Below, piece by piece: positions 44,492 to 64,000 of a stretch of DNA of 64,000 nt. Positions within the stretch are counted from its first letter, which is position 1, and each line of letters starts with the position of its first letter. The notes beneath the pieces were generated by a model, which did no database searches, had not been told where the DNA came from, and saw only the letters and a list, made by a program, of their open reading frames with translations. Position numbers and translations under genes: made by a program. This DNA is from Desulfurispora thermophila DSM 16022 (GTDB lineage: Bacteria > Bacillota > Desulfotomaculia > Desulfotomaculales > Desulfurisporaceae), in contig NZ_AQWN01000009.1 of assembly GCF_000376385.1 (NCBI RefSeq), positions 62,001 through 126,000 on the forward strand, written 5' to 3'.

Positions 44492-45623
44492 CAATTCTAC
44501 CATGCAAATCGATGCCAGCAAAGCCAATGTGCTCGTGCCAACCCAGTATCTTCAACAAGTCTCGCCCTGGCACGTTGCGAGAACATCCATTGTCACCGTT
44601 AACCCAGACCCCAACTATGGAGACGTTTATAAAGTCGGCAGCCGCTGGAATGAGCAGAAAAAAGCTGCAGAAGACATCTTCGCTCTCGGAAAACCGGCTC
44701 TCATGCGCATCGCTGCTGCTGCCGGCATCGTTTGGAACTGGAGGGAAAGCGGCCCCCAGGTCATCCAGAAGGACTATGTGGTTTACAAGGCCGTGGGGGC
44801 CCTGCGCCTCCCCGATGGTTCATGGCAGCCCATTGTTGCCACGAAAGAAATTGACCTCACCGTTATTGAGGAAGAAACCTACGAAGCTAACCTCAAGAAA
44901 GCCCTCGAATATGCTTCCGACCCTAAGAAGCAGGCTGCCTTGAAGGGTATGACGCCCGAGCAGTGGGCGCAGGCCCAGACCAAGGCGGCAATGATACAGT
45001 GGCGCAAGAACAAGCTCATGCGGGCGGAAACCGGGGCTATGCTCAGGGTCATTCGTGCGGCCCTGGGCATGAAGTCGCAATATACCCGCGAAGAGCTGGA
45101 GAAGCCCTTCATTGTGCCGCGCATAGACTTTTCCCCTGACTACTCAGACCCCGAGGTTAGAAAGGCTCTCATTGAAAATGGCATCCAGGCGATGGCGACT
45201 TTATTCGGCCAATCGGCACCGACTTCGCCGGCACTCGGCCCGGGTAGCGGTAGTTCGCCTTTCTCTGGCTCTCATCCTGCTCTGACCGGGCCTGACATTG
45301 ACGACGATACCCCTTATGCGGTCGAGGATGCGGCCTTCATTGAAAATGAAGCTTCGCAGTCCCAAGAAGAGGAGCAGCCGAGCGCTCAGGAACAGCCGCA
45401 ACAGGAGGAACAAACTGCCCAGGGACAAATGGGATTATTCCCGGGAGCTCCTGCGCCCTCCCCGCCTACAGCTGCCAAGGCAACAGCTAAGAACGGCAAG
45501 GCAGTGGCTTATTGCGAAGTATGCGGAAACGGCATAACCGAGAAAGTCCTTCAATATAGCCAGCAGAAGTACGGTAGGGCCTTGTGCTACAAATGCCAAA
45601 GCAATGGAGGTGCTAAGGCATGA
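44481..45623 (+). CDS. Putative phage recombination/annealing protein
   Basis: 380 aa, not firmly recognised. Residues 1-215 form a compact domain (VNPDPNYGDVYKV, WQPIVATKEIDLTV, KLMRAETGAMLRVIRAALGM) followed by an acidic, Gln/Glu/Pro-rich linker (about 265-335) and a C-terminal zinc ribbon CEVCGNG...CYKC. Placement directly before SbcD- and SbcC-like nuclease genes is where phages carry single-strand annealing proteins, and the linker-plus-tail layout is also common there. Annealing activity is inference from context. Confidence 0.5.
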   Translation: MSVNNSTMQIDASKANVLVPTQYLQQVSPWHVARTSIVTVNPDPNYGDVYKVGSRWNEQKKAAEDIFALGKPALMRIAAAAGIVWNWRESGPQVIQKDYVVYKAVGALRLPDGSWQPIVATKEIDLTVIEEETYEANLKKALEYASDPKKQAALKGMTPEQWAQAQTKAAMIQWRKNKLMRAETGAMLRVIRAALGMKSQYTREELEKPFIVPRIDFSPDYSDPEVRKALIENGIQAMATLFGQSAPTSPALGPGSGSSPFSGSHPALTGPDIDDDTPYAVEDAAFIENEASQSQEEEQPSAQEQPQQEEQTAQGQMGLFPGAPAPSPPTAAKATAKNGKAVAYCEVCGNGITEKVLQYSQQKYGRALCYKCQSNGGAKA

Positions 45624-46786
45624 AAATCCTTGCAGCTCCCGACCTCCATTGCTTCTGGCCCAACTACAGCCGAACTCTAGAAGACGGTACCCCTTCCCGG
45701 CTCCATGACTGGCGCAGAACTGCCAGCGCCCTGGCGGACGTGGCGATGGTCCATAACGTGGCCGTCGCCCTCTTCCCGGGCGACTTCTTCCCGAATTCGA
45801 GGCCGGCACCAGCGCAGGTGCTGGAAGTGGTCGAGTTATTCTCTCGCTTGGAGCAGCTCGGAATTTCCGTCGTGGGGTGTGCCGGCAATCATGACCTGCT
45901 TGGTCCTGGCCAACCGTCGCCAGTGGACGTGGTGGCTCGTTTCTCTCCTGACGGAATGCGCTGGGGGATAACTAAGCCAAGCTGGGTTAAGCTCGACGGG
46001 CTCAACGTGGTGGTGCTACCTTCGGTCAAGGTTCCACAAACCAACGGGGACCCGGCTGCTGCCGCCCAGGAGCTATCCGAGGAACTCATTAAAGTAGCCC
46101 GTGCCCTCGTTGCCCAGGCTATGGATTGGAAACCCCAGCCTACCGTGATAATGGGCCACTGGGCGATTTCGGGGTGCAGTTTAGCCGCCGGGAATGTCCT
46201 GGCTGCCACTGAGCCAACATTGCCGCTCGGAGAACTGCAAAGCCTCCCGGTTCAGGCCGTGGTAATGGGCCACATCCACACTCCGCAGGTGCTGGCTACC
46301 AACCCCCTGGTGCTGCACACCGGGACTTTTGAACGACACGACTTCGGTGAAGAGGGCATCCAACCGGGGTGCTATGTCATCGACCTTGACACCCAAAAAG
46401 CAGAATTTATTCCCCTGCCGGCCCGGAAATTCGTCACCCTGGACCTCAACAACTTACCGCCAAACACCTTGGACGATAAAAAGCGTATGGCCGAGCTCGT
46501 AAAGGATGCCGTGGTGCGGGTGAAATACCGTTGCACCGAAGAAGATGCAAAGTTCATGGACCATACAAAGATAGCCCAGAAGATTAACGAGGCCGGAGCA
46601 TTCATGCTGGCCGGCATTTATCCAGACATAATTCGTTCAGAGCGCAGCCGGGAGGCCAGCATCAATGAGAGCACGTCTCCTATCGAAGCCTTGAAGAAGT
46701 GGCTGGCCCTGCGTGATGACATCAGCCCAGAACTAAAGGCCAAAGTTATAGCCGCAGCCGAGGGCCTTATAAAGGAGGTGGCGTAG
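45620..46786 (+). CDS. SbcD-like exonuclease subunit
   Basis: Metallophosphoesterase of 388 aa, the nuclease partner of the SbcC-like gene downstream (compare T4 gp47). Metal motifs in order: APDLH (Asp8, His10), FPGDFF, CAGNHDLLG (about 89), MGHWAISG and MGHIHTP (about 217). Processes DNA ends for recombination-dependent replication. Coupled by ATGA to the upstream gene; RBS TGGAGGTG. Confidence 0.9.
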   Translation: MKILAAPDLHCFWPNYSRTLEDGTPSRLHDWRRTASALADVAMVHNVAVALFPGDFFPNSRPAPAQVLEVVELFSRLEQLGISVVGCAGNHDLLGPGQPSPVDVVARFSPDGMRWGITKPSWVKLDGLNVVVLPSVKVPQTNGDPAAAAQELSEELIKVARALVAQAMDWKPQPTVIMGHWAISGCSLAAGNVLAATEPTLPLGELQSLPVQAVVMGHIHTPQVLATNPLVLHTGTFERHDFGEEGIQPGCYVIDLDTQKAEFIPLPARKFVTLDLNNLPPNTLDDKKRMAELVKDAVVRVKYRCTEEDAKFMDHTKIAQKINEAGAFMLAGIYPDIIRSERSREASINESTSPIEALKKWLALRDDISPELKAKVIAAAEGLIKEVA

Positions 46787-48988
46787 ATGGAACCGGTATT
46801 GCTGGACCTACAGAATTTCCTTAGCTATAGACGTGAAACTGTGGACCTCTCTCCTATTACCTGTGCCGCACTTGTGGGCGAGAACGGAGCCGGTAAAAGC
46901 AGTTTACTCGATGCCCTTACTTGGGCGCTCTTCGGGCAGGGCACAAGGGGTGGAACGAAAGAGCTCGATAACTACGTCACCCGAGGCGAAAAAGAGGCCC
47001 GCGTTGAGGTGCAGTTCAGGCTTAACGGAGCCACCTACAAGGTAGTGCGGGGCAGGAGTATAGCACGAAACAAGAGCACACTGGAATTCTTCATCCTGGA
47101 TGGCGAAAACTGGCGGCCTCTATCCGGTAAGACCCTGGCCGAGACACAGAAGGTTATCGAGGAAACCCTTCGCATGGACTACCGGACATTCACCGCCAGT
47201 GCCCTGGTGCTCCAGGGGCAGGCGGATGCATTCACGGCCAATATGACCGACCAGGAGCGGAAGGAAGCCTTGGCCCGCATCCTGGGTTTAGACCTCTGGG
47301 ACCGGATGCAGGAGCGGGCCCGGGAGAAGGTACGGCAGCTTAAAGCTGAGGCTCAGGCCATGGAGCTCAACCGCAAGCGGCTTATGGAGCTGGTAAGCGA
47401 AAAGGACGGGCTAGTTAGCCGGCAGGCGGCTATCAACCAGGAACTCGGCACCATGGCCGCCCAGGTCGAGGATATATCTTCAAAAGCGACTGACCTGGAA
47501 GCCAAGCTAAAACAAAAGCCCGTCCTGGAGCAAACCCTGGCCGACACCCGCAGGGCAATGCAAAAGGCTTTAGCGGAAATACAGGCCAACGACCAGGAGA
47601 TAACAAAGGCCCGCCAGCAAATAGCCCAGGCTGAACAACAAATTAAAGCCGCTGAAACCATCCTGGCACGCAGGGAAGAGATTGAGGCTGCCGTGGAAAT
47701 GGAAGCAGAGATAGCTCAGGACGTGGCCGAATTCGACCGCCAGGCCCAGGAATACATGAAGCTCCAAGGAGAAATAGCAAAGCTTCAGCAGCAGGAAGCG
47801 GCGTGGAACCAGAAGATGGCGGCAGAAGTGGCAAGGCTGGAGGCCCAGGCCGAAAGCGCAGCCAAACAGGCTGGGCTTTTAGGAAATGTTCCATGCTCAG
47901 GTGAAGTCAAAAGCGCCTGCCCTTTGCTGGCCTCGGCCAGAAAAGCTTCGGAGCTATTATCTCAGGTCAAAGCAAGGTTGGCTCAGTTAAGAGCCCAGAC
48001 CAACCCTTACACCCAGCAACGTACGAAGCTAGAACAAACCTTAGTATCGCTGGAATATGACCAGGAAGCCCATAAAGCCGCCAAGGCTGCCCTGGAAGAT
48101 GTGCGGAAGACGGCACGGCTTAAAGCAGAATTGGACGCCGCTGCGGAAAAGGTGGCGATGCTCACGGCAAGGATAGCGGAGCTCCAGGACCATATTGCCG
48201 CCCTGGAGCAAAAGAACCGGGACCTTTCCGCTGAGGTCGATAACCTTAAAGCTCGTGAGGCCAGCATTGTTCAGGAGATAGAGGCACTAAAACCAATAGC
48301 CTTGGAGCTCTCCCAAGTGCAGAGCCAGCTCAACGACCTGCGCCGCCAGGAAGCAGCCCTCCGAACCGAGTTGGGGAGAATTGAAAGTTCCCTGGAGCAG
48401 GTAGCTAAGGCAGAAGTCGAGCTGGCCGAGCATGAGAAAAAAGCCCAGGCGCTTAAAGAAGAGCTGGCCGTTTACGAGGTCCTTGACCAGGCGTGCGGCA
48501 AAAAAGGCGGCGTTCCCGCCCTGGTGGTCGAAAACGCAGTTCCGGAGATTGAGCGGTTGGCTAATGATATACTCTCCCGCATGGCCGGCGGAAGGCTGGC
48601 AGTACGGTTAGATACCCAGGCCGAGGGCAAGACCACCGGCACCATGCAGGAAGTCCTTCGGATTACGGTACTGGACGGTGGTATTGAGCGGCCATATCAG
48701 ACATACTCCGGCGCTGAACGTTTCATGGTGGACCTGGCCCTGCGAGTAGCGCTCTCGAAGTTTCTGGCCCACCGGGCTGGAGCGGAAATAAAGCTGTTCG
48801 TGCTTGACGAAGGACTGGGGGCCTGCGACCAGGCCAACCGGCAGGCGGTAATGCAGGCCATCCAGACCGTGGCTCAGGAGTTTGGAAAGGTGCTGGTGAT
48901 AACCCACATAGCTGAGCTGCAGGATGCACTGCCGCAGAGGATTGAGGTAACTAAAGGGCCTGATGGAAGCAAGGTGAGGATAGCGTAA
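46787..48988 (+). CDS. SbcC/Rad50-like ATPase
   Basis: 733 aa. Walker A GENGAGKSSLLDAL (about 32-39), long antiparallel coiled coil (about 180-365 and 385-575), ABC signature TYSGAERFMVDLALRVALS, Walker B LFVLDEGLGACD (about 671). At the apex the zinc hook is not CxxC but PCSGEVKSACPLL (Cys about 370 and 378). Forms the ATP-gated complex with the SbcD-like subunit, like T4 gp46/47. Starts directly after the previous stop. Confidence 0.92.
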   Translation: MEPVLLDLQNFLSYRRETVDLSPITCAALVGENGAGKSSLLDALTWALFGQGTRGGTKELDNYVTRGEKEARVEVQFRLNGATYKVVRGRSIARNKSTLEFFILDGENWRPLSGKTLAETQKVIEETLRMDYRTFTASALVLQGQADAFTANMTDQERKEALARILGLDLWDRMQERAREKVRQLKAEAQAMELNRKRLMELVSEKDGLVSRQAAINQELGTMAAQVEDISSKATDLEAKLKQKPVLEQTLADTRRAMQKALAEIQANDQEITKARQQIAQAEQQIKAAETILARREEIEAAVEMEAEIAQDVAEFDRQAQEYMKLQGEIAKLQQQEAAWNQKMAAEVARLEAQAESAAKQAGLLGNVPCSGEVKSACPLLASARKASELLSQVKARLAQLRAQTNPYTQQRTKLEQTLVSLEYDQEAHKAAKAALEDVRKTARLKAELDAAAEKVAMLTARIAELQDHIAALEQKNRDLSAEVDNLKAREASIVQEIEALKPIALELSQVQSQLNDLRRQEAALRTELGRIESSLEQVAKAEVELAEHEKKAQALKEELAVYEVLDQACGKKGGVPALVVENAVPEIERLANDILSRMAGGRLAVRLDTQAEGKTTGTMQEVLRITVLDGGIERPYQTYSGAERFMVDLALRVALSKFLAHRAGAEIKLFVLDEGLGACDQANRQAVMQAIQTVAQEFGKVLVITHIAELQDALPQRIEVTKGPDGSKVRIA

Positions 48989-53710: not shown

Positions 53711-54229
53711 ATGCCGGTGGGATATTCGGCCCGGTGCCGGGTCTGCAACTCACCGCACCGGGTGGAAATAGAGCAGTGGTGCAAAGACGAAGGGCTAAGC
53801 CCGAGAGCCGCAGCTGCAAGATTACTTGAACGTTACGGTGAAAAGATAACCCATGTGACCATCTGGAGGCACATGCAAGAGCACTTCGATATTAGGGCTG
53901 AAGCTCGGGAGCAATATCGTAAAAGCCAAGAGCAAATGCAGACTTCGGTTAAAAAATGCTTATCCGACCTCCAGATGCTGGATTCAATTGCCCAGGACAG
54001 CTACGAGCTACATCAGGCGGTTAGGGCGTGGCTGGCGGACCTTATAAAAGAGAGGGGCAAAATCCCCAGGGTATTGGTGGAGCTGCTTGCGGTAACTGCG
54101 TCGGAAGTCCGTCAGCAATTGAAGCAGAAAGCCGAGCTCCTTGGTGACGACCCAGTAAGCCGTTTGGCCGATGGTGTAGCAACTTGGGCGGAGCTGGTGC
54201 AGGCAGCGGCATCGGATGAAGATGAATAA
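53711..54229 (+). CDS. terS: Putative terminase small subunit
   Basis: 172 aa. N-terminal zinc/HTH region: CRVCNSPHRVEIEQWCKDEG, SPRAAAARLLERYGEKITHV, TIWRHMQEHF, i.e. a DNA-binding domain, then a long helical part suited to ring oligomerisation. Position before terL and after tandem repeats supports packaging-site recognition. ATG 53711 with AGGAGG at 8 nt. Overlaps terL by 14 nt. Confidence 0.75.
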   Translation: MPVGYSARCRVCNSPHRVEIEQWCKDEGLSPRAAAARLLERYGEKITHVTIWRHMQEHFDIRAEAREQYRKSQEQMQTSVKKCLSDLQMLDSIAQDSYELHQAVRAWLADLIKERGKIPRVLVELLAVTASEVRQQLKQKAELLGDDPVSRLADGVATWAELVQAAASDEDE

Positions 54230-55604
54230 AGCCGAAGCAAGAATTCTCCTCGACCGTGCAAAAAGGGACCCAGTATTCTTTGTCACCAAGGTACTTGGCG
54301 GTGACCCATGGGAAAAGCAGGAGGAAATCCTGAAGGCAGTTAGAGACCATCGACGTGTGGCCGTCCGGGCCTGCCATGGCGTAGGAAAGACCAGGGTAGC
54401 TGCTTGGGTGGCCTTGTGGTTTCTATACTGCCACAAAAACAGCAATTTTATAACAACCGCTCCTACATGGCACCAGGTGGAAAACTTGCTCTGGCGAGAA
54501 ATAGCAGCTGCACATGCCAGTTCAAAGTATCCGCTTGGGGGTAAGGTTCTACAAACGCAGATTGAACTCGGAAAACAGTGGTTTGCCCTGGGGTTATCGA
54601 CCGACAAGCCGGAGCGGTTCCAAGGATTTCACGCCGAGCATATCCTGCTGATAGTGGACGAGGCCAGCGGCGTTGCCCAGCGCATATTTGAAGCAGCGGA
54701 AGGTTTTCTTACAAGCCCTGGAGCAAGGCTTTTGCTTATCGGGAACCCGACACAGCTTTCCGGTGAATTTTACAATGCCTTTCGGTCGCCCCTGTACCAC
54801 AAGATACACATTAGTGCGTTCGATAGTCCTAATCTTAAGGCTGGAAAGATTATCCGGCCTTATTTAGTTACCCCGGAATGGGTAGAAGAGAAGCGGCTCA
54901 AGTGGGGGGAAGATAGCCCGCTGTGGTACAGCAGAGTGCTGGGAGAATTCCCGGAACAAGGCGACGATACGCTTATCCCACTTGCCTGGATTGAAGCGGC
55001 ACAGCAAAGGTGGCAAATGACGCCGCGCGGAGAACCGGTAGAGCTCGGCGTAGACGTTGCCCGCTATGGCACGGATACTACAGTTATCATATTGCGCCAG
55101 GGCAGTAAAGCTGAAGTTATTGCCCAGCTTCGTGGCCAGGACACAATGGAAGTCACCGGCGCGGTTATCAATGCTTTAAGAGAAACTGGGGCTAAAGTTG
55201 CCAAGGTAGATGTAATCGGTCTTGGGGCTGGTGTGGCAGACCGTCTAAAAGAGCAGCGTTATCCGGTTCAGGAAATGAATGCCGGCGAAGCGGCCCAAGA
55301 TAAAGAGCGGTTCGTTAATAAGAGGGCCGAATGGTACTGGGCTTTACGAGAAAGATTTCAGGTTGGCGATATTGCCATCCCTCCGGATGATGAGCTGGCT
55401 TCTCAGCTCGCAAGTTTGAAGTATAAGTTCGACAGCAGGGGCCGCATACAGGTTGAGAGCAAAGAAGATATGCGAAAACGAGGGCTGCCCAGCCCCGATA
55501 AAGCCGATGCCCTTATGCTTGCTTTTGCGCCAACCCAGTCGCTCACTTTGAAGGCGGCTCCTAGAATAATAGGCCGGAACAGCATAGCCGGCATAGCGTG
55601 GTGA
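54216..55604 (+). CDS. terL: Terminase large subunit
   Basis: 462-aa DNA-packaging motor. ATPase: CHGVGKTRVAAW (Walker A, about 50-57), LLIVDEASGV (Walker B, about 143), coupling motif LIGNPTQLSGEF. Nuclease of RNase H fold: GVDVARYGTDTTVIILRQG (about 278-296), VDVIGLGAG, and a late Asp in SPDKADALMLAF. Complete, so packaging should be functional. Confidence 0.95.
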   Translation: MKMNKAEARILLDRAKRDPVFFVTKVLGGDPWEKQEEILKAVRDHRRVAVRACHGVGKTRVAAWVALWFLYCHKNSNFITTAPTWHQVENLLWREIAAAHASSKYPLGGKVLQTQIELGKQWFALGLSTDKPERFQGFHAEHILLIVDEASGVAQRIFEAAEGFLTSPGARLLLIGNPTQLSGEFYNAFRSPLYHKIHISAFDSPNLKAGKIIRPYLVTPEWVEEKRLKWGEDSPLWYSRVLGEFPEQGDDTLIPLAWIEAAQQRWQMTPRGEPVELGVDVARYGTDTTVIILRQGSKAEVIAQLRGQDTMEVTGAVINALRETGAKVAKVDVIGLGAGVADRLKEQRYPVQEMNAGEAAQDKERFVNKRAEWYWALRERFQVGDIAIPPDDELASQLASLKYKFDSRGRIQVESKEDMRKRGLPSPDKADALMLAFAPTQSLTLKAAPRIIGRNSIAGIAW

Positions 55605-55608
55605 TTTT

Positions 55609-56862
55609 ATGAGTGTACAATCTGGTCAATTAGGCAGCCAGCTAAACTGGGTTCTATCTCAGATTGACGGCACTGTTTTCAACCCCGATAGCATCAGCGT
55701 CCAAGAGTACCAGCGGATGCTGGACACGGACGAAACCGTAGGCGCTGCGTTTGACTTTCTGGTTCTTGTAGTGCTCACCATGTTGGGCGAGTACCACCAC
55801 GAAAACCCGCAGATAGCTCAATTCGTCCATGATGCCCTTGAGCAGATGAAAGGGTCATTTATACGAACGCTGGAGGATATGCTTTCTTACCTTTGGGCAG
55901 GGTTTTCGGTGACCGAGATAGTCTGGAACCCGGAAGGCACAACAGTAAAGCTCGAAAAACTGGCCACTTACCACCCGGCCACGATTTCCTTCCGGGTAGA
56001 CGATAGTGGCAACCTGAAGGAGATAGTGCAAAGGCGGCTATTTGCAGCCCAGGAAGCTGTTATACCGCCGGACAAGGCGGTGCTTTTAGTTAGAGGCGGG
56101 CGTTTCGGGAACCTCTATGGTCAAAGCCTGTTTAAGCGCATCCGAAAAAATTGGCTTTTAAAGGATGCCTTCTTAAAGATGTGGGGCCGTGCTCTGGACA
56201 AATTCGGCACTCCTCTGGTGGTGGCCGTGGTCCCGGACGCCGAGGTTAAGGACCCGGAAACCGGTGAGGACATTCATCAGCTCGACTACGCCGTAAAGGT
56301 GCTGGCAAACCTCCAAAACGGTACAGCTTTGGCGTTCGCGAAAAGCGCTGACCAGGCACCGGATATAAAGGCGCTCACTACCGGCGGAGCCGGGGTTGGC
56401 GAAGCCTTTAGCCAGGCCATCCAGTACCTCAACAAGATGATTTGCCGGGGGTTATTAATCCCCAGCCTGGTCATAGACGAGGGTATGCGCACTGGGTCCT
56501 ATGCCCTGGGGGCATCGCATTTTGATGCTTTCTACCTGGCGGCCAGGGCGATATACCAGGACCTCACCGAGAACCTGCTGGAGCAGCTTATCCGCAGGCT
56601 TATTGACTACAATTTTGGCCCGCAGACGGACTACGGTACCTTCACGGAGCAGCCACCAGATGCGGAAAGCATGAAGCTTTACGCCGAGGCATTTCGACAG
56701 CTCGTGGATGCTGGATTCCTGGACCCGCAGGTGGCCGAGGATTTGCGGTGGGCCCGCTCTAAACTGGGGCTCCCTGACCGGGAACCTGCTTCGGTAGTGG
56801 CTCAGGCTGCGATAGACGCATTCCCCCGCTACCTGCGTGCACCGGAAGGTGGTGAGGAATGA
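55609..56862 (+). CDS. Portal protein (DUF935, Mu gp29-like)
   Basis: 417 aa. MLDTDETVGAAFDFLVLVVL, AGFSVTEIVWN, VLLVRGGRFGNLYGQSLFK and the wing/stem order match the Mu gp29/DUF935 portal family, the dodecameric channel at the head vertex. Follows terL by 4 nt and overlaps the gpF-like gene by 4 nt. Confidence 0.9.
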   Translation: MSVQSGQLGSQLNWVLSQIDGTVFNPDSISVQEYQRMLDTDETVGAAFDFLVLVVLTMLGEYHHENPQIAQFVHDALEQMKGSFIRTLEDMLSYLWAGFSVTEIVWNPEGTTVKLEKLATYHPATISFRVDDSGNLKEIVQRRLFAAQEAVIPPDKAVLLVRGGRFGNLYGQSLFKRIRKNWLLKDAFLKMWGRALDKFGTPLVVAVVPDAEVKDPETGEDIHQLDYAVKVLANLQNGTALAFAKSADQAPDIKALTTGGAGVGEAFSQAIQYLNKMICRGLLIPSLVIDEGMRTGSYALGASHFDAFYLAARAIYQDLTENLLEQLIRRLIDYNFGPQTDYGTFTEQPPDAESMKLYAEAFRQLVDAGFLDPQVAEDLRWARSKLGLPDREPASVVAQAAIDAFPRYLRAPEGGEE

Positions 56863-57668
56863 GAGATGACTTAGAGTTGAAGTTTGCAAAGGAACTGGAC
56901 AAAGCCGAAGAAGAGGTGCTGAAGAAGATAGCCCGTTGGCTTAGCGAGGCTCTGGCCCACTTGCCCTGGGGTAAGGCAGCTGAGATACAAAAGTGGCACC
57001 CTACGACAAGGCTATCGCTATACAAGATACTGGCCGAGCACGTGGGGAAAGTATTTGCCGCAGGCCGGGCACACGGGAAAAAGTTATGTGCTGCTGCCAG
57101 ACGGAGGGAACTGGCGGATTATGAGCTGCCGGAGTTCAACTTCAACTACGAAGGCGACATCAAGGTGATGCCGGTCCAGGCCATGCGTGCCTTGGAAGCA
57201 AGGCAACTGGTCCTATCTGGTGTATTTGAGAGCGACCTAATCAACGCCGTAAAAAAGGTGCTTATCAGCCACCTTGGTGGCTTGCCTCGCAAAGAAGCCG
57301 AGGAGGAAATCGCTAAAGTGCTCAATTCTGCCCGGGATAGAGCAAGCCTTATCGTGACCACCGAAACGACTTACGCCTATAACCGTGGAAGGTTGATTTC
57401 ATTCAAAGAGGCTAAGGTGGATTATGTTCGCTTTTCGGCAGTTATGGATTCCCGCACCTCGCCCCAGTGCCGCTCCAGGCACGGGCTGGTGATGGCCATA
57501 GACGACCCGGCACTACCTTATAACACTCCCCCGCTCCACGGGAGGTGCAGGTCAGTGCTGACACCTATCTATTCGCGCTATCAGCCAGAATACATCACAC
57601 CTGAAACGCTGGACTGGTCCAATGTGGTGCCGCTGCCCAAGGGGTGGCGGGCCGGCGGGATAGATTGA
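56859..57668 (+). CDS. Head morphogenesis protein (Mu gpF/SPP1 gp7-like)
   Basis: 269 aa minor head protein. C-terminal Phage_Mu_F domain: DRASLIVTTETTYAYNRGRL, YVRFSAVMDSRTSPQCRSRH and NTPPLHGRCRSVLTPIYSRY carry the conserved Cys/His/Asp set. Binds portal and interior DNA during head assembly. ATGA overlap with the portal gene. Confidence 0.9.
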   Translation: MRDDLELKFAKELDKAEEEVLKKIARWLSEALAHLPWGKAAEIQKWHPTTRLSLYKILAEHVGKVFAAGRAHGKKLCAAARRRELADYELPEFNFNYEGDIKVMPVQAMRALEARQLVLSGVFESDLINAVKKVLISHLGGLPRKEAEEEIAKVLNSARDRASLIVTTETTYAYNRGRLISFKEAKVDYVRFSAVMDSRTSPQCRSRHGLVMAIDDPALPYNTPPLHGRCRSVLTPIYSRYQPEYITPETLDWSNVVPLPKGWRAGGID

Positions 57669-57683
57669 AAGGAGGTGAAGTAA

Positions 57684-59012
57684 GTGAGCGACGAGCGGGA
57701 AAAACTGCGCAAGGAAGCCGAGGCCCGGGCCAAGAAATACGGCATCTCCTTTAAAGAGGGCAAAGGTCACCTTACGCCGCCCAAGGGCTACCCAAGTGAC
57801 CCGGACCAATACGGCGACCCGGTTAACTACGCTTACCCGATAGATGAGGGCCACATCAGACCAGCAGTTGCTTACTTCAACCACGAAGGTCAGCGGGAAG
57901 CCGGCGGCTATACTCCCGAGGAGTGGGCCGTCATTGGCAAACGCATCGCTTCTGCGGCTTCGCGACTGCTCGGGGGAAAATACGAGTACAAAAACGGCAA
58001 GGTTGTCCGGGTTGATGATGAGGGTAAAAAGCTGGCCGAGCAAGGGCTGCTGAAGATACCCTTCTTCCGTCTTGGTAGGTGGAAACATCCTATCTACGGC
58101 GAGATAAAAGCCGATAGGCAGCTTTTTGCCCAGATGGTCAAGAACTTCAAAGAAGGGGTACTTGGACGCCCCGTATTCGTGCGGCTTGGACATGATGCTG
58201 GACACAAGGCCACGTTTGGGGATGCGCCGGCGGAAGCTTGGGTTAAGGACATCGTGGAAGAAAACGGCGTGCTCTATGCCATAGCCGAGCCCACTTCGCC
58301 GGAAGTGCTGGAAATGGTCAAGACTGGCCGCTATCGCTTTGCCAGCGCCGAGTATACCCCGGACTATGTGGACAAGGAGACCGGGGAGCGTAAGGGCCCG
58401 GTGCTCACCGCGATAGCCCTGACTAATGAGCCGTTTTTGACAAGGTTACCCGAGGCGAGGGTTCTATCCGACCCGCCTGACACTATTTACCTTGACTATG
58501 CGGAGGTGGATAACGAAGTGGAAACTAAAGAACTTTTACAGGAGAACAACAGCCTTTTGAGGCAGCTCGCCGAGCAGATTGGTAAACTGTTTGGTGGCAA
58601 AAAGGAGGATAAGAATTTGCAGGACGATGTGAAGGTTAACCTTGCGGAAATCGAGGCTATGAAGCAGAAGTTGGCCGAAACTGAGGCGAGGTTGAAGGCT
58701 GCCGAAGCCCAGACCAGAAAGGTGGAAATCGAAAAGCGCCTTTCCGAGCTTGTGGCGAAGGGTATCCCGCCCGTGATGTGCAACAAGGCTAAGGAGATAT
58801 TACTCGCCTTGCCGGCTGACGAGACCATTAAGCTTGCCGAAGACAAGACTGCTAAACTCTCTGACCTTATCTTTGAGCTACTGGAAGCTTTGCCGGAGAG
58901 CAGCAGGATAAAGTTTGCCCAGTTAGGCGCTCAGGAGAGCGTAAAACCTGGTAGCGCCGCCGAAATCTACGGCGATGTAGTTCCAGAACTGAAGAAAGGA
59001 GCTGATAAGTAA
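57684..59012 (+). CDS. Mu I-like protease/scaffold
   Basis: 442 aa. Residues 1-105 contain an additional small domain (HLTPPKGYPSDPDQYGDPVN, a known phage addition). The middle is the I-type prohead protease (AQMVKNFKEGVLGRPVFVRL-GHD, RFASAEYTPDYVD, LTAIALTNEPFL), and the C-terminal 150 residues form a coiled-coil scaffold (LLQENNSLLRQLAEQIGKLF, KLAETEARLKAAEAQTRKVE). GTG start behind AGGAGGTGA. Overlaps the capsid start by one base. Confidence 0.88.
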   Translation: MSDEREKLRKEAEARAKKYGISFKEGKGHLTPPKGYPSDPDQYGDPVNYAYPIDEGHIRPAVAYFNHEGQREAGGYTPEEWAVIGKRIASAASRLLGGKYEYKNGKVVRVDDEGKKLAEQGLLKIPFFRLGRWKHPIYGEIKADRQLFAQMVKNFKEGVLGRPVFVRLGHDAGHKATFGDAPAEAWVKDIVEENGVLYAIAEPTSPEVLEMVKTGRYRFASAEYTPDYVDKETGERKGPVLTAIALTNEPFLTRLPEARVLSDPPDTIYLDYAEVDNEVETKELLQENNSLLRQLAEQIGKLFGGKKEDKNLQDDVKVNLAEIEAMKQKLAETEARLKAAEAQTRKVEIEKRLSELVAKGIPPVMCNKAKEILLALPADETIKLAEDKTAKLSDLIFELLEALPESSRIKFAQLGAQESVKPGSAAEIYGDVVPELKKGADK

Positions 59013-60328
59013 TGCCCGAACTCACTGCTCTTGAGTTTACTGTCTTAACCGAGCTTGCTAAGACTTTTGAGAACTTTGATACCACGGTTGGGCAGTTTTT
59101 CCCTAGCCGCAACGTGCCTAACTACAGCGTGAAGATTGAGAGAGTCTACAACGGAGTGGGCATTGCTCCTATCGTGGACCCTAAGAAACCTGATTTCTTT
59201 GCAGATAGGGCTAACGTCCAATCGATGGATGTGACCCCGGTCTATAGCCGTGAATCTGACTACCTGGACCAGAACACCATCAACAACCTGCGTCAGCCCG
59301 GAACCTTAAACGAGAAGTATGGCAAGCAAATTGTGGCCGATACCATGAAGCGCCTGGTGGCCAGGAACGACCTGCTTTTTGACTTCCTTCGCAGCCAGAT
59401 GCTTCTTGGGGGTATTAACTACACTGACCCGAGAACTGAGCAAACGGTCAACGTCTCGGCAGGCATTCCGGCTGAACACTTTGTGACTGCTTCTACTGCT
59501 TGGACCGACCTGGCCAATGCTAAGCCAATCGACGACATCGAGGATTGGAAGCAGCTCATTTACAACAATGGTAAGGTCCAGCCAACCCATATCATCATGA
59601 CTTCTGTAATGCGCTCTAAGCTCAGCCGCAACGCCCAGGTGATTGCTCGCGGTGAATCGGCAAGAGATACCGGCTTTGTGGTGTTTCAAAACGGGGAGCT
59701 CGCCAGGATTGCAGGGCTAGAAGTTGTAGTACAGGACGCCGTTTACGAGGAGCTCACTCCTGCTACCGTGCCGACTGCGACTGTGAAGGTAACCGCAACG
59801 ACCATCAATGAAGGCGACACTATCGAGCTTATCATTGGCGGCGTGAGCAGCGGGGTTTATACTGCGGTGGCCGGGGATACAGCAAATAAAGTAGCTATTA
59901 ACCTTGCGAACTTTATAAATGGTAATCCTTTCATGCCAGTAAGAGCCACTGTATCCAGCGCTACTATTACCCTGACTCCGAAAGAGCCGAAGAAAGACCA
60001 GAGCATTGAGATTACCAAGAGCGGAAATATCAGCGCTACCATTACCGGTTCGCCCATTGTAATTACCGGCCAAGGGCTTGTTAAGACTGTCAAGAAGATG
60101 ATTCCCGACAACAAGGTGGTCATATGCTGCAAAGCGGCTGCCGGCGAGCCTCTTGGCCGCACCGACTTCGTGATTGGCGAGCATCCCGCTGGCCAGCCAG
60201 GTATCTGGAGCCGCTCGGTGGAGACCCAGCCGCCCAACCCGCCCGGCGTGCTCTTGCAGGTGGGCCGTGCTGGACTGCCTTACGTGAGGTATCCTGAGTG
60301 GATTGTGGTGGCTACCGTTGCGGCTTAA
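59012..60328 (+). CDS. Major capsid protein (gpE-like) with inserted domain
   Basis: 438 aa. The core resembles the lambda gpE/major capsid E group: VTPVYSRESDYLDQNTINNL, VADTMKRLVARNDLLFDFLR, MTSVMRSKLSRN, and a C-terminal KMIPDNKVVICC...LLQVGRAGLPYVRYPEW. Between about residues 250 and 356 is an extra beta-rich module (TVKVTATTINEGDTIELIIG, YTAVAGDTANKVAINLANFI, ATITLTPKE) like domains in phage tail and surface proteins. The insert may project from the shell. Confidence 0.88.
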   Translation: MPELTALEFTVLTELAKTFENFDTTVGQFFPSRNVPNYSVKIERVYNGVGIAPIVDPKKPDFFADRANVQSMDVTPVYSRESDYLDQNTINNLRQPGTLNEKYGKQIVADTMKRLVARNDLLFDFLRSQMLLGGINYTDPRTEQTVNVSAGIPAEHFVTASTAWTDLANAKPIDDIEDWKQLIYNNGKVQPTHIIMTSVMRSKLSRNAQVIARGESARDTGFVVFQNGELARIAGLEVVVQDAVYEELTPATVPTATVKVTATTINEGDTIELIIGGVSSGVYTAVAGDTANKVAINLANFINGNPFMPVRATVSSATITLTPKEPKKDQSIEITKSGNISATITGSPIVITGQGLVKTVKKMIPDNKVVICCKAAAGEPLGRTDFVIGEHPAGQPGIWSRSVETQPPNPPGVLLQVGRAGLPYVRYPEWIVVATVAA

Positions 60329-60342
60329 GGTGGTGAGCAATA

Positions 60343-60759
60343 ATGTACTGCTCGCCAGATAACGTGCGAAAGCTGACGCAGCTATTGGCTAACGAACCGG
60401 ATGAGGCGATAATCCCGTATATCGAAAAGGCAGGGGCACGCATAGACGCATACCTTTCCAAGCGCTATGTTGTGCCCCTCGCTTCTACCCCGCCGATTAT
60501 TGCTTCCATTGCGGCGGATATGGCAGCCAGCTTCATTCTCGATGAACACACCACTGAACGGTTTAAGGACCAGACCACCTATGGGGAGGTCCTCTTCAAG
60601 CGGGCACAGCAGGACCTTGAGCGGATTGTGGCGGATGGGCTGCTGGACAACTACCCTGGCGTAGTGCTGGCGGAAGGTGTAAGCCCGGGCGTGAGGCCCT
60701 GTATTGCGTCAACAACGAAAGGCCCCAGCCCGTTAGAGGAGGTGCTGGGCCAGTGGTAA
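60343..60759 (+). CDS. Head-tail connector, Mu gp36-like (DUF1320)
   Basis: 138 aa: YCSPDNVRKLTQLLANEPDE, YIEKAGARIDAYLSKRYVVP and SIAADMAASFILDEHTTERF are the DUF1320 pattern of Mu gp36, a connector/adaptor below the portal. RBS AAGGTGG. Overlaps the next gene by 7 nt. Confidence 0.88.
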   Translation: MYCSPDNVRKLTQLLANEPDEAIIPYIEKAGARIDAYLSKRYVVPLASTPPIIASIAADMAASFILDEHTTERFKDQTTYGEVLFKRAQQDLERIVADGLLDNYPGVVLAEGVSPGVRPCIASTTKGPSPLEEVLGQW

Positions 60760-61349
60760 AGGTTGAGATTGAGGTAAAGGGCATGGAAGCAGTTATGAAC
60801 GTAATAGGCAGCATGGCCCAGCGGGGAGTAAAGACCAGACCGCTGATGCGGGCAGCCGGAAACATCCTCCTTCAAAGCGTTGCCCGCAACTTTGAGGAAC
60901 AGGGCCGCCCGAGGTGGAAACCGTGGAGCGAGCTCACCAAGGCAATTTACGAAGGGCTGGCGGTAGCAAGGGCCCAAAGCACCAAGGCTTGGCAGCGGGC
61001 TGGTGAAAGAGGACGCAGGTCCATTGAACAGCGTTACGTTCAGCGGTATGTGGCAGGAGCTAAAATCCTGCAACGCTCGGGCGACTTAAAGAAGAGCATC
61101 GAGATAGGCCGGATTGGCGATACCTACGTTGAAATCGGCTCCTCCCTGCCGTATGCCCGCATCCACCAGCTCGGCGGGGTGGTAAGGCCGAAGCGGTATC
61201 GCTTCCTTTTTGTCCCCACCGCCAGCGGGTTCTTGAGACTGCGCGAGGCCCGTATACCGGCACGGCCATTCTTGCTGGTCCAGGACGAGGATAAGCGGGC
61301 TATCATATTGGCCACCCGTGACTATTTACTTGAGGGGAAATTGCCATGA
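60753..61349 (+). CDS. Virion morphogenesis protein (Mu gpG/tail-completion S-like)
   Basis: 198 aa. Phage_tail_S/virion morphogenesis family: LMRAAGNILLQSVARNFEEQ, GRPRWKPWSELTKA, ILQRSGDLKKSIEI, YARIHQLGGVVRPKRYRF and RPFLLVQDEDKRAII. Acts at the head-tail joining step. GTG start behind GAGGAGGTG. Confidence 0.85.
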   Translation: MVKVEIEVKGMEAVMNVIGSMAQRGVKTRPLMRAAGNILLQSVARNFEEQGRPRWKPWSELTKAIYEGLAVARAQSTKAWQRAGERGRRSIEQRYVQRYVAGAKILQRSGDLKKSIEIGRIGDTYVEIGSSLPYARIHQLGGVVRPKRYRFLFVPTASGFLRLREARIPARPFLLVQDEDKRAIILATRDYLLEGKLP

Positions 61350-61810
61350 TAGACATTGCGAATGCCGTGCTTACCGTGCTCAAAAACGACCCTGCTTTAG
61401 CCCAAATTCAGGAATGGCAGCCGGTGAACGGCCTTATAACCCTGAAAGCACCTGGCGTGAGCGTGGGAATCGAAAAGGAAGTGTTTGCGCCGGACACCAG
61501 GTCTGTGGACGCGGCATCCGCAACATTAAAAATAGTGGTCTGGACCAGGGACAAAGACCCTGCCGCCGGCGAGGCTGCGGTGCGTGAACTTGCCCATACT
61601 GTCCGCTATTGCCTTAACGAAAACCGCACTCTCGGTGGTTTGGTGGACGGCGGTTTCATCAGCCAAATCGAATACTTGACCGCTGAGGCAAACCAGGGGC
61701 TGCTTTTGCACCTGGCTGAAATAACCTATGAGGTTGATTATTCGGCTGAGCGAGTGAGGAAGGAAACTTACCCAACTGTGGGTAGCGTGAATGCTGAAAT
61801 CGGACAATGA
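61346..61810 (+). CDS. Tail terminator-like protein (Mu gp37-like)
   Basis: 154 aa, mixed alpha/beta: MIDIANAVLTVLKNDPALAQ, SATLKIVVWTRDKDPAAGEA and LLLHLAEITYEVDY. Position between gpG-like and sheath genes matches Mu gp37/DUF1834-type proteins that cap the tail tube. ATGA overlap with the gene before. Confidence 0.72.
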   Translation: MIDIANAVLTVLKNDPALAQIQEWQPVNGLITLKAPGVSVGIEKEVFAPDTRSVDAASATLKIVVWTRDKDPAAGEAAVRELAHTVRYCLNENRTLGGLVDGGFISQIEYLTAEANQGLLLHLAEITYEVDYSAERVRKETYPTVGSVNAEIGQ

Positions 61811-61824
61811 GGGGGTATGAATAA

Positions 61825-63228
61825 ATGGCGCTTGAGTACATCGTCCCCCGCGTGGCCGTGGACGAATCGGATGTAGGCCCTCGCCCTACTCCATCGGTGA
61901 GCCTTGCGTCCATCGGTATCGTGGGGACTTTTTCCAAGGGCCCAGTTAATACGCCGGTGACCATTGGAAGCCTGGAGCAACTGATTGAAGTCTTTGGTGA
62001 GTATAAGCCCGGGTTGACCGGGTATTTAACGGCCCGCGGAGCTTTACACCAAGGGGCAAATGACTTAAAAGTTGTGCGAATCGGCAGCCCCAACCTTAAG
62101 GCGGCCAGCCTGGTACTTAAAGACAGCACCAATGGCGACAGCGTACTGGTAGAGGCTGTCACGCCTGGAACTTGGGGCAACGACATTAAGGTGGCTGTAG
62201 CGAGCGGAACCCAGACCGGAACTTTTAAGCTCGTTGTGACTTACGGTAAAGTCTCTGAAACGCATGATAACCTTACTCTGGATAACCTGAGCGGTGTTAA
62301 GTCTAATCTGGTGAAACTGAGCAAGGCAACGGGAGCCACTAATATCCCGGCCAATATCACTGCCACTCCGCTTTCCGGTGGCAACGACGGTGCTGATACT
62401 ACCGACAGCGATTACATTGGTACCATTGACGCCCAAGGTAACAGGACCGGGCTTAAGGCTATGGAGCCGGTTAGGGTGGCAATTGTGGTCTGCGCCCAGC
62501 AGTATTCAGAGCAGATTCATGCGGCGTTAATCGCCCACTGCGCGGCGGCTACTATCGGCCAGGGCTTGCGCATGGCGGTACTTAATACCGCTCCCGGGCT
62601 CACGGTTGATGCGGCCACCCAGGTAACTACAGAGCTGGACAGCATGAGGGCTATCATGACTTATCCGTGGCTGGAGCCGCTTGAAGAAGCTGGAACTTAC
62701 GTTGCTCCGGATGGCTACTATGCCGGCAGGCTTGCGGTATTGGCTTCGCAGCAAAGCCCGAGCAACAAGGAAATCGTAGGCATTACGGGGACCGAGCGTT
62801 ACTTTACCGACGCCGAGGTAAAGGCTCTTACTCTGGCCCGCATTTCTCCTATCACCTTGGTGCCCGGGCGGGGTTATCGCATTAGGAACGGCTTGACGCT
62901 CTCTTCTGACCCGGCATGGAATCAGACGAACATCAGGCGGCAATTCGACCAGCTTGAGATGGAGATTTATGATGCCCTCCAGTGGGCTATTTCGGAGGAG
63001 AACACTCCGGAGCTCAGGATGGCGGTAGCTGCCCAGATTGATGCCCACCTGGAGAACAAGAAGCGCAAGGGCGAGATTTACGACTATAAGCCAACAATCT
63101 GCGACGATACCAACAATACTCCTGAGACCATTGCGGCTCGCATACTGAACGTCAAGGTACGCGTGCGGCCAGTTTATGCTTCGGACTATATCGATGTGGC
63201 CGTACAGCGGCTCCTGACCACGGCGTAA
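61825..63228 (+). CDS. Contractile tail sheath protein
   Basis: 467 aa. VGPRPTPSVSLASIGIVGTF, VTIGSLEQLIEVFGEYKPGL, a central variable domain, and a conserved C-terminal domain (RLAVLASQQSPSNKEIVGIT, YRIRNGLTLSSDPAWNQTNI, RRQFDQLEMEIYDAL) identify the phage sheath family. Proves a myovirus-type tail. RBS GAGGGGG. Next gene starts 14 nt after its stop. Confidence 0.95.
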   Translation: MALEYIVPRVAVDESDVGPRPTPSVSLASIGIVGTFSKGPVNTPVTIGSLEQLIEVFGEYKPGLTGYLTARGALHQGANDLKVVRIGSPNLKAASLVLKDSTNGDSVLVEAVTPGTWGNDIKVAVASGTQTGTFKLVVTYGKVSETHDNLTLDNLSGVKSNLVKLSKATGATNIPANITATPLSGGNDGADTTDSDYIGTIDAQGNRTGLKAMEPVRVAIVVCAQQYSEQIHAALIAHCAAATIGQGLRMAVLNTAPGLTVDAATQVTTELDSMRAIMTYPWLEPLEEAGTYVAPDGYYAGRLAVLASQQSPSNKEIVGITGTERYFTDAEVKALTLARISPITLVPGRGYRIRNGLTLSSDPAWNQTNIRRQFDQLEMEIYDALQWAISEENTPELRMAVAAQIDAHLENKKRKGEIYDYKPTICDDTNNTPETIAARILNVKVRVRPVYASDYIDVAVQRLLTTA

Positions 63229-63242
63229 GAGGGTGATGAGCG

Positions 63243-63455
63243 ATGCTGAAGATTAAGAATACCTGCCCTGGCTGTGGGTTGTGCCTCCCGGCCTGCCCCA
63301 CCGGGGCATTGAAGCTGGAGAACGGGAAAGCGGTGATAGCGGGTGAATGCGTAGAGTGCGGCTTATGCGTAGCTTCCTGCCCGGTCAAAGCTTTGAGTAT
63401 TGAGCAGGAGGCTAAGCCACCCGAAACCACCAAGGAGGTGAAGAAGCGTGGCTAA
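63243..63455 (+). CDS. 2[4Fe-4S] ferredoxin encoded in the tail operon
   Basis: 70 aa. Two complete cluster motifs CxxCxxCxxxCP: Cys8, 11, 14, 18 (CPGCGLCLPACP) and Cys36, 39, 42, 46 (CVECGLCVASCP), pseudo-twofold as in clostridial ferredoxins, plus a Lys/Glu/Thr-rich tail. No signal peptide. RBS GAGGGTGA; its last 8 nt overlap the tail-tube gene, whose RBS lies inside it, so it is built into the late operon. Either a structural Fe-S protein of the tail or an electron carrier for the infected anaerobe. Identification as a ferredoxin fold is firm; the role is unknown. Confidence 0.9.
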   Translation: MLKIKNTCPGCGLCLPACPTGALKLENGKAVIAGECVECGLCVASCPVKALSIEQEAKPPETTKEVKKRG

Positions 63456-63879
63456 AATACAGGGTTATGACGCATCGGTGCTGATTACCGGACCACAAGG
63501 ACCTGAGCTCGTGGGAGACTACCAGGAAGCTGAGTTCTCCATCAAGGAGGACACCGAGGAATACCTGGAACTCGGCGAGCGTATCCCAGCCATTCTGGAC
63601 GGCGAAATCAAAATCGAAGGTAAGTTGAAGCGCGGGCATATGCTGCTCGACATTATCAAGCGTATTTGGGGACAGTCTTCCTTGAAGCGAGGCAGCCGTA
63701 TTCCGCCGTCGCCCAGGTTTACTATTATCGTCAACATCAATGCCCCGGAAAAAGGCTTTGTCGGTCGTTATCGCTTACTGAATTGCAAAATTAGCGACCT
63801 GGGGCTAAAGCTCAAGGCAGGCAAGGACATCATGGAAGAGGACATTGACTTTAAAGCTGAAGGTATTGAAGGGGCTTAA
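63448..63879 (+). CDS. Tail tube protein
   Basis: 143 aa, beta-rich with one helix: ASVLITGPQGPELVGDYQEA, FSIKEDTEEYLELGERIPAI, FTIIVNINAPEKGFVGRYRL, typical of contractile-tail tube proteins that follow the sheath gene. GTG at 63448 behind AAGGAGGTGA located in the end of the ferredoxin gene. Confidence 0.85.
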   Translation: MAKIQGYDASVLITGPQGPELVGDYQEAEFSIKEDTEEYLELGERIPAILDGEIKIEGKLKRGHMLLDIIKRIWGQSSLKRGSRIPPSPRFTIIVNINAPEKGFVGRYRLLNCKISDLGLKLKAGKDIMEEDIDFKAEGIEGA

Positions 63880-63892
63880 GGAGGGTTAATAG

Positions 63893-64000
63893 ATGGAGGC
63901 TAAAATTTATGGTCCGCTGGAGCTCCCCAGCGGAAGAAAGATTAAATTCCGTGCTCCTACCGGCAAAGATAGGCTTGACGTTATCCGTATGCTCAGGGTG
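63893..64000 (+). CDS. Tail assembly chaperone-like protein (partial)
   Basis: First 36 codons only: MEAKIYGPLELPSGRKIKFR followed by APTGKDRLDVIRMLRV, cut by the window edge. AGGAGGG lies 10 nt upstream. Position after the tube gene and the short beta start fit the Mu gp41-like tail assembly chaperone, which often uses a frameshift further on. Confidence 0.6.
   Translation, partial: MEAKIYGPLELPSGRKIKFRAPTGKDRLDVIRMLRV

Follow-up and report, generated by a model that had tools for sequence, protein, structure and literature searches.

A predicted two-cluster ferredoxin gene fixed between sheath and tube in one lineage of contractile tail modules from prophages of anaerobic Bacillota

The ferredoxin gene and its place in the tail operon

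The window analysed here is a 64,000-nucleotide stretch of the genome of Desulfurispora thermophila DSM 16022 (contig NZ_AQWN01000009.1, positions 62,001 to 126,000), part of a 175-kb contig of the 2.8-Mb genome, and it carries a prophage with a contractile tail module in which a gene for a predicted two-cluster ferredoxin stands between those of the tail sheath and the tail tube (Table 1). The open reading frame (ORF) starts with ATG and contains two motifs, CPGCGLCLPACP and CVECGLCVASCP, each an exact CxxCxxCxxxCP as a first-pass annotation made from the letters alone had claimed, and it matches Pfam Fer4 with E=1.8e-12. The predicted structure is a ferredoxin fold (pLDDT 79, with a low-confidence C-terminal tail), and the best matches in a fold search with this model were 1dur and 1fca. 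Since both motifs and fold are those of a 2[4Fe-4S] ferredoxin, we infer that the gene encodes a ferredoxin-fold protein of this type, with cluster binding as a prediction. The protein resembles clostridial-type 2[4Fe-4S] ferredoxins (1fca, 1dur, 1fdn) in its two motifs, core size and predicted fold (TM 0.82-0.85 by target length), but differs from them in its position inside a phage tail operon and in its variable C-terminal tail.

The same annotation had described a close packing of the three genes, which the coordinates bear out: only 14 nt separate the end of the sheath stop codon from the ferredoxin start, the ferredoxin and tube ORFs overlap by 8 nt, and the ribosome-binding site of the tube gene, which starts with GTG, lies within the ferredoxin reading frame. 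Promoter-like and terminator-like matches in 61000-64000 showed no excess over chance, with none between the genes, in agreement with the view that the ferredoxin gene has no promoter or terminator of its own. The tube was identified through its profile match and the fold match of its model (Table 1); this model is of modest confidence (pLDDT 65), its best fold match being the R-bacteriocin tube of C. difficile, and a profile search of the tube against solved structures gave no match.

Table 1. Features of the prophage around the ferredoxin gene (window positions).
Feature	Position	Strand	Evidence
Terminase, portal, head morphogenesis, protease, capsid and connector genes of the same prophage	54216..61349	+	PHROG matches
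gp37-like gene in tail terminator position	61346..61810	+	Synteny; role inferred from position; also in the headless locus
Tail sheath gene, directly upstream of the ferredoxin	61825..63228	+	Pfam sheath domains; PHROG 23, E=2.6e-55
Two-cluster ferredoxin gene (predicted), 70 aa, 8 Cys	63243..63455	+	Sequence, Pfam Fer4, ferredoxin-fold model, family conservation
Ribosome-binding site of the tube gene, AAGGAGGTG	63432..63440	+	Sequence; within the ferredoxin reading frame
Tail tube gene	63448..63879	+	PHROG 365 (3.7e-5); fold match to R-bacteriocin tube CD1364

Presence in related tail modules

Relatives were collected by sheath and tube searches of viral contigs, species genomes and whole genomes, which yielded 17 distinct members (the window, L004, L014, L015, L006, L069, L038, L019, L073, L018, L055, L056, L057, L058, L105, L111 and L115), the named hosts being Desulfofundulus thermosubterraneus and Desulfocucumis palustris. 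The first-pass annotation had proposed to look in related prophages for a CxxCxxCxxxCP ORF between sheath and tube, and a two-motif ferredoxin ORF is indeed the next gene after the sheath in all 17; the tube follows it in each of the 16 members with a visible flank (the contig of L073 ends there). By contrast, no ferredoxin ORF was found in 70 unrelated control sheath loci of the same phylum (~1.5-2.3 kb of flank each), which rules the gene out as a feature of all contractile systems in the phylum (Fisher p=2e-18 for 17/17 vs 0/70, a value that overstates independence since the members are related). Among the matches listed in a first sweep, none of the sheaths scoring <=210 bits had a ferredoxin beside it, the Alicyclobacillus phage with the closest sheath among annotated phages has no such ferredoxin, and a search of plasmids returned distant sheaths only. 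Judged by gene order, the predicted ferredoxin has become fixed in one lineage of contractile tail modules, carried by prophages of anaerobic Bacillota.

As expected of a tail module component, the gene always accompanies the tail genes of this lineage, and it does so even where the head is missing. In the G446 locus, which is flanked by host genes, a repressor, an amidase, a late activator, a holin, gp37, sheath, ferredoxin, tube and the remaining tail genes were identified, and no head genes were found. With a complete tail module, genes for lysis and regulation and none for a head, the locus is laid out like a tailocin, which it putatively encodes. Elsewhere too the ferredoxin outlasts matches to head proteins: the window capsid protein has no match in G059, G431 and G115, though the ferredoxin is retained, and several relatives that keep the ferredoxin have lost the best match to capsid or portal. 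Separately, we note that the headless tail module is followed (L089 7297-10653, G446:C5) by two radical-SAM genes flanking a gene for a 326-aa protein with ~52 Cys in CNCVSRTGTGGCTCN-like repeats, at a place where tail-fibre genes are expected.

Sequence conservation and relation to host ferredoxins

In a 14-row alignment of the phage ferredoxins the eight Cys and the two Pro of the CP pairs are invariant and one Gly is nearly so, while in L058, L105 and L115 motif 1 is longer by two residues, placed before its fourth Cys. The ferredoxin gene is under purifying selection, with dN/dS of 0.08-0.26 where estimable, higher than the 0-0.06 of the tube; a spurious ORF is ruled out by these values and the invariant cysteines. 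Outside the cysteines, mean core identity is 35% in the ferredoxin; sheath and tube reach 52-53% and the chaperone 47%. Ferredoxin distances track those of the tube (Mantel r=0.73; partial r=0.75 given the sheath), also after control for the chaperone, and are more weakly correlated with those of the sheath (r=0.36).

Host ferredoxins, compared as picked by the family profile, are distant. The phage ferredoxin was by far the best profile match in each of nine genomes (80-99 bits vs <=55), and with leave-one-out profiles, made for those members whose host genome is known, the phage copies scored 74-88 bits vs 46-54 for the best host relatives, the phage copy again ranking first in every genome. 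A profile search of 398 genomes gave as its six top matches exactly the six genomes that have this sheath, all six being also represented in the profile. The phage tail ferredoxins resemble one another more than they do host ferredoxins, although a tree of both (56 columns) neither shows nor rejects a single phage clade (p-AU 0.107). We therefore give next to no probability to the idea that a host ferredoxin was recently inserted as cargo, for which no supporting point was found and which is ruled out by conservation across the family, most members being 33-50% identical to the window copy, and by the distance of the host copies. Absence from relatives together with a near-identical host match, named in the first-pass annotation as the signs of such an insertion, are both not observed, and there is strong support for its view that the ferredoxin is an integral gene of the tail operon and differs from typical cargo.

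Nor does the gene look like an auxiliary metabolic or moron gene, which would be sporadic, variable in place, host-like and equipped with its own promoter or terminator: its place is invariant, the host genes are distant and no promoter or terminator signal rises above chance. Phage-borne ferredoxins annotated in this way (PHROG 16249) are likewise carried by phages but match only weakly (5.2e-5), and differ from the window-type gene, which is fixed between structural genes.

Possible roles of the ferredoxin

Few protein machines have been studied as thoroughly as contractile tails, and we know of no iron-sulfur protein that belongs invariably to their core genes. In the open-licence literature no paper was found that describes a ferredoxin gene with a constant place between those of sheath and tube, which is not proof of absence, and annotated phages offered no precedent. 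Diffocins, the R-type particles of C. difficile, and PBSX-like contractile tails are alike in tube fold (CD1364) and in having a contractile sheath-tube module, but we know of no ferredoxin between their sheath and tube. The C. difficile sheath and tube have the consecutive gene numbers CD1363 and CD1364 (PMC6088184). An iron-sulfur cluster of unresolved function is present in the tail tip proteins gpL of lambda and gp13 of a gene transfer agent (PMC10721106), in agreement with what the first-pass annotation stated for gpL, whose cluster cysteines are Cys173, 182, 205 and 212 (PMC10721106). The likeness lies in an iron-sulfur protein from a phage tail module; gpL and gp13, however, belong to the tips of non-contractile tails and have a domain that holds one [4Fe-4S] cluster through widely spaced Cys, whereas the window protein is a stand-alone ferredoxin of 70 aa, with eight Cys in two ferredoxin motifs, adjoining a contractile sheath.

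Because the gene always lies between sheath and tube, even in a tail-only locus that lacks capsid genes, the ferredoxin probably does work in or for the tail, as a component or as a helper, instead of being metabolic cargo that the phage borrowed. The first-pass annotation had suggested a tail iron-sulfur protein, as assembly clamp or redox trigger, or else a late-expressed electron donor. Of this, membership in the tail is supported: the gene is invariably linked to the tail genes, diverges along with the tube and is kept in the headless locus. As evidence for a link to the tail, the comparison of head and tail genes is stronger than the co-divergence. More specifically, we give about even chances to a tail-module protein serving tail assembly or structure, probably together with the tube. 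The ferredoxin would be translated in step with sheath and tube, fold around its two clusters in the reducing cytoplasm and attach to tail proteins, with the tube the most likely partner, in the role of an assembly factor or a minor structural piece; the clusters would serve chiefly to staple together the fold of so small a protein. Three points weigh against such a role: the fold of the predicted model is that of ordinary electron carriers, the ferredoxin outside its cluster ligands evolves faster than the other three genes in the comparison, which is not what a tightly packed subunit would show, and the co-divergence with the tube, while fitting a tube partnership, may equally reflect a linked block of genes.

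The main rival, which we consider possible though unlikely, is an electron carrier made late for host or phage enzymes, that is, an auxiliary metabolic gene placed in the tail operon only for strong late expression. Its complete 2[4Fe-4S] motifs, the match to the fold of electron-carrier ferredoxins, the variable surface and the hosts, anaerobes rich in ferredoxin enzymes, would all suit such a carrier, but against it stand three observations: every member has the gene in the same position, between two structural genes; the gene is retained in a locus without replication or head genes; and other contractile systems of the same phylum do without a ferredoxin. A structural or regulatory subunit on tube or sheath, whose cluster state would set tail assembly or firing and thus make a redox-active contractile injection machine, appears rather improbable. 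Also improbable is a redox or oxygen sensor of the tail controlling assembly or firing through its clusters, to which nothing direct points except that oxygen-sensitive clusters would sit in a tail module of anaerobe phages; neither partner cysteines nor a regulatory feature were found, and here too the ferredoxin-free sheath systems of the phylum speak against it. Alternatively, the protein might donate electrons to radical-SAM enzymes that modify tail-fibre proteins, as the two radical-SAM genes around the Cys-rich repeat protein after the G446 tail genes might suggest, but this rests on one locus and, among the matches listed, no comparable radical-SAM gene occurs in the tail regions scanned of other members, which makes it very improbable.

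If the ferredoxin is part of the tail as we favour, it would add a metal-cluster protein to contractile tails, could introduce an oxygen-sensitive step in phages of anaerobes, and would bear on the unresolved role of the lambda gpL cluster. The family offers natural variants for testing, including a tail-only version.

Other ferredoxin matches and neighbouring genes

A different ferredoxin in L081 was rejected, as there is no tail gene of this kind nearby in the stretch read. Six "Bacteriophage sp." faecal records with ferredoxin matches were examined and set aside, none having this sheath or tube and all being marked UNVERIFIED. In five UNVERIFIED human-faeces records, L218-L221 and L223 (MT835490, MT836965, MT837448, MT835868, MT835508), the frames resemble genes of bacterial Rnf operons, and these records are probably mislabelled bacterial scaffolds.

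Downstream of the tube, past the window end, follow genes named by similarity and order as chaperone, tape measure, LysM, hub, spike and baseplate genes. Residues 252-324 of the capsid protein (Phage_cap_E, window 59012-60328) match the tail-sheath PHROG family 165 and may be an inserted domain common to both. A gene pair encoding a phosphoesterase and an SbcC/Rad50-like ATPase precedes the head genes at window 45620-48988. Just past the window end (L013 10969-14328), a putative tail-fibre gene of 516 aa is followed by a reverse-transcriptase gene (Pfam RVT_1, 5.9e-21), which could belong to a candidate diversity-generating retroelement.
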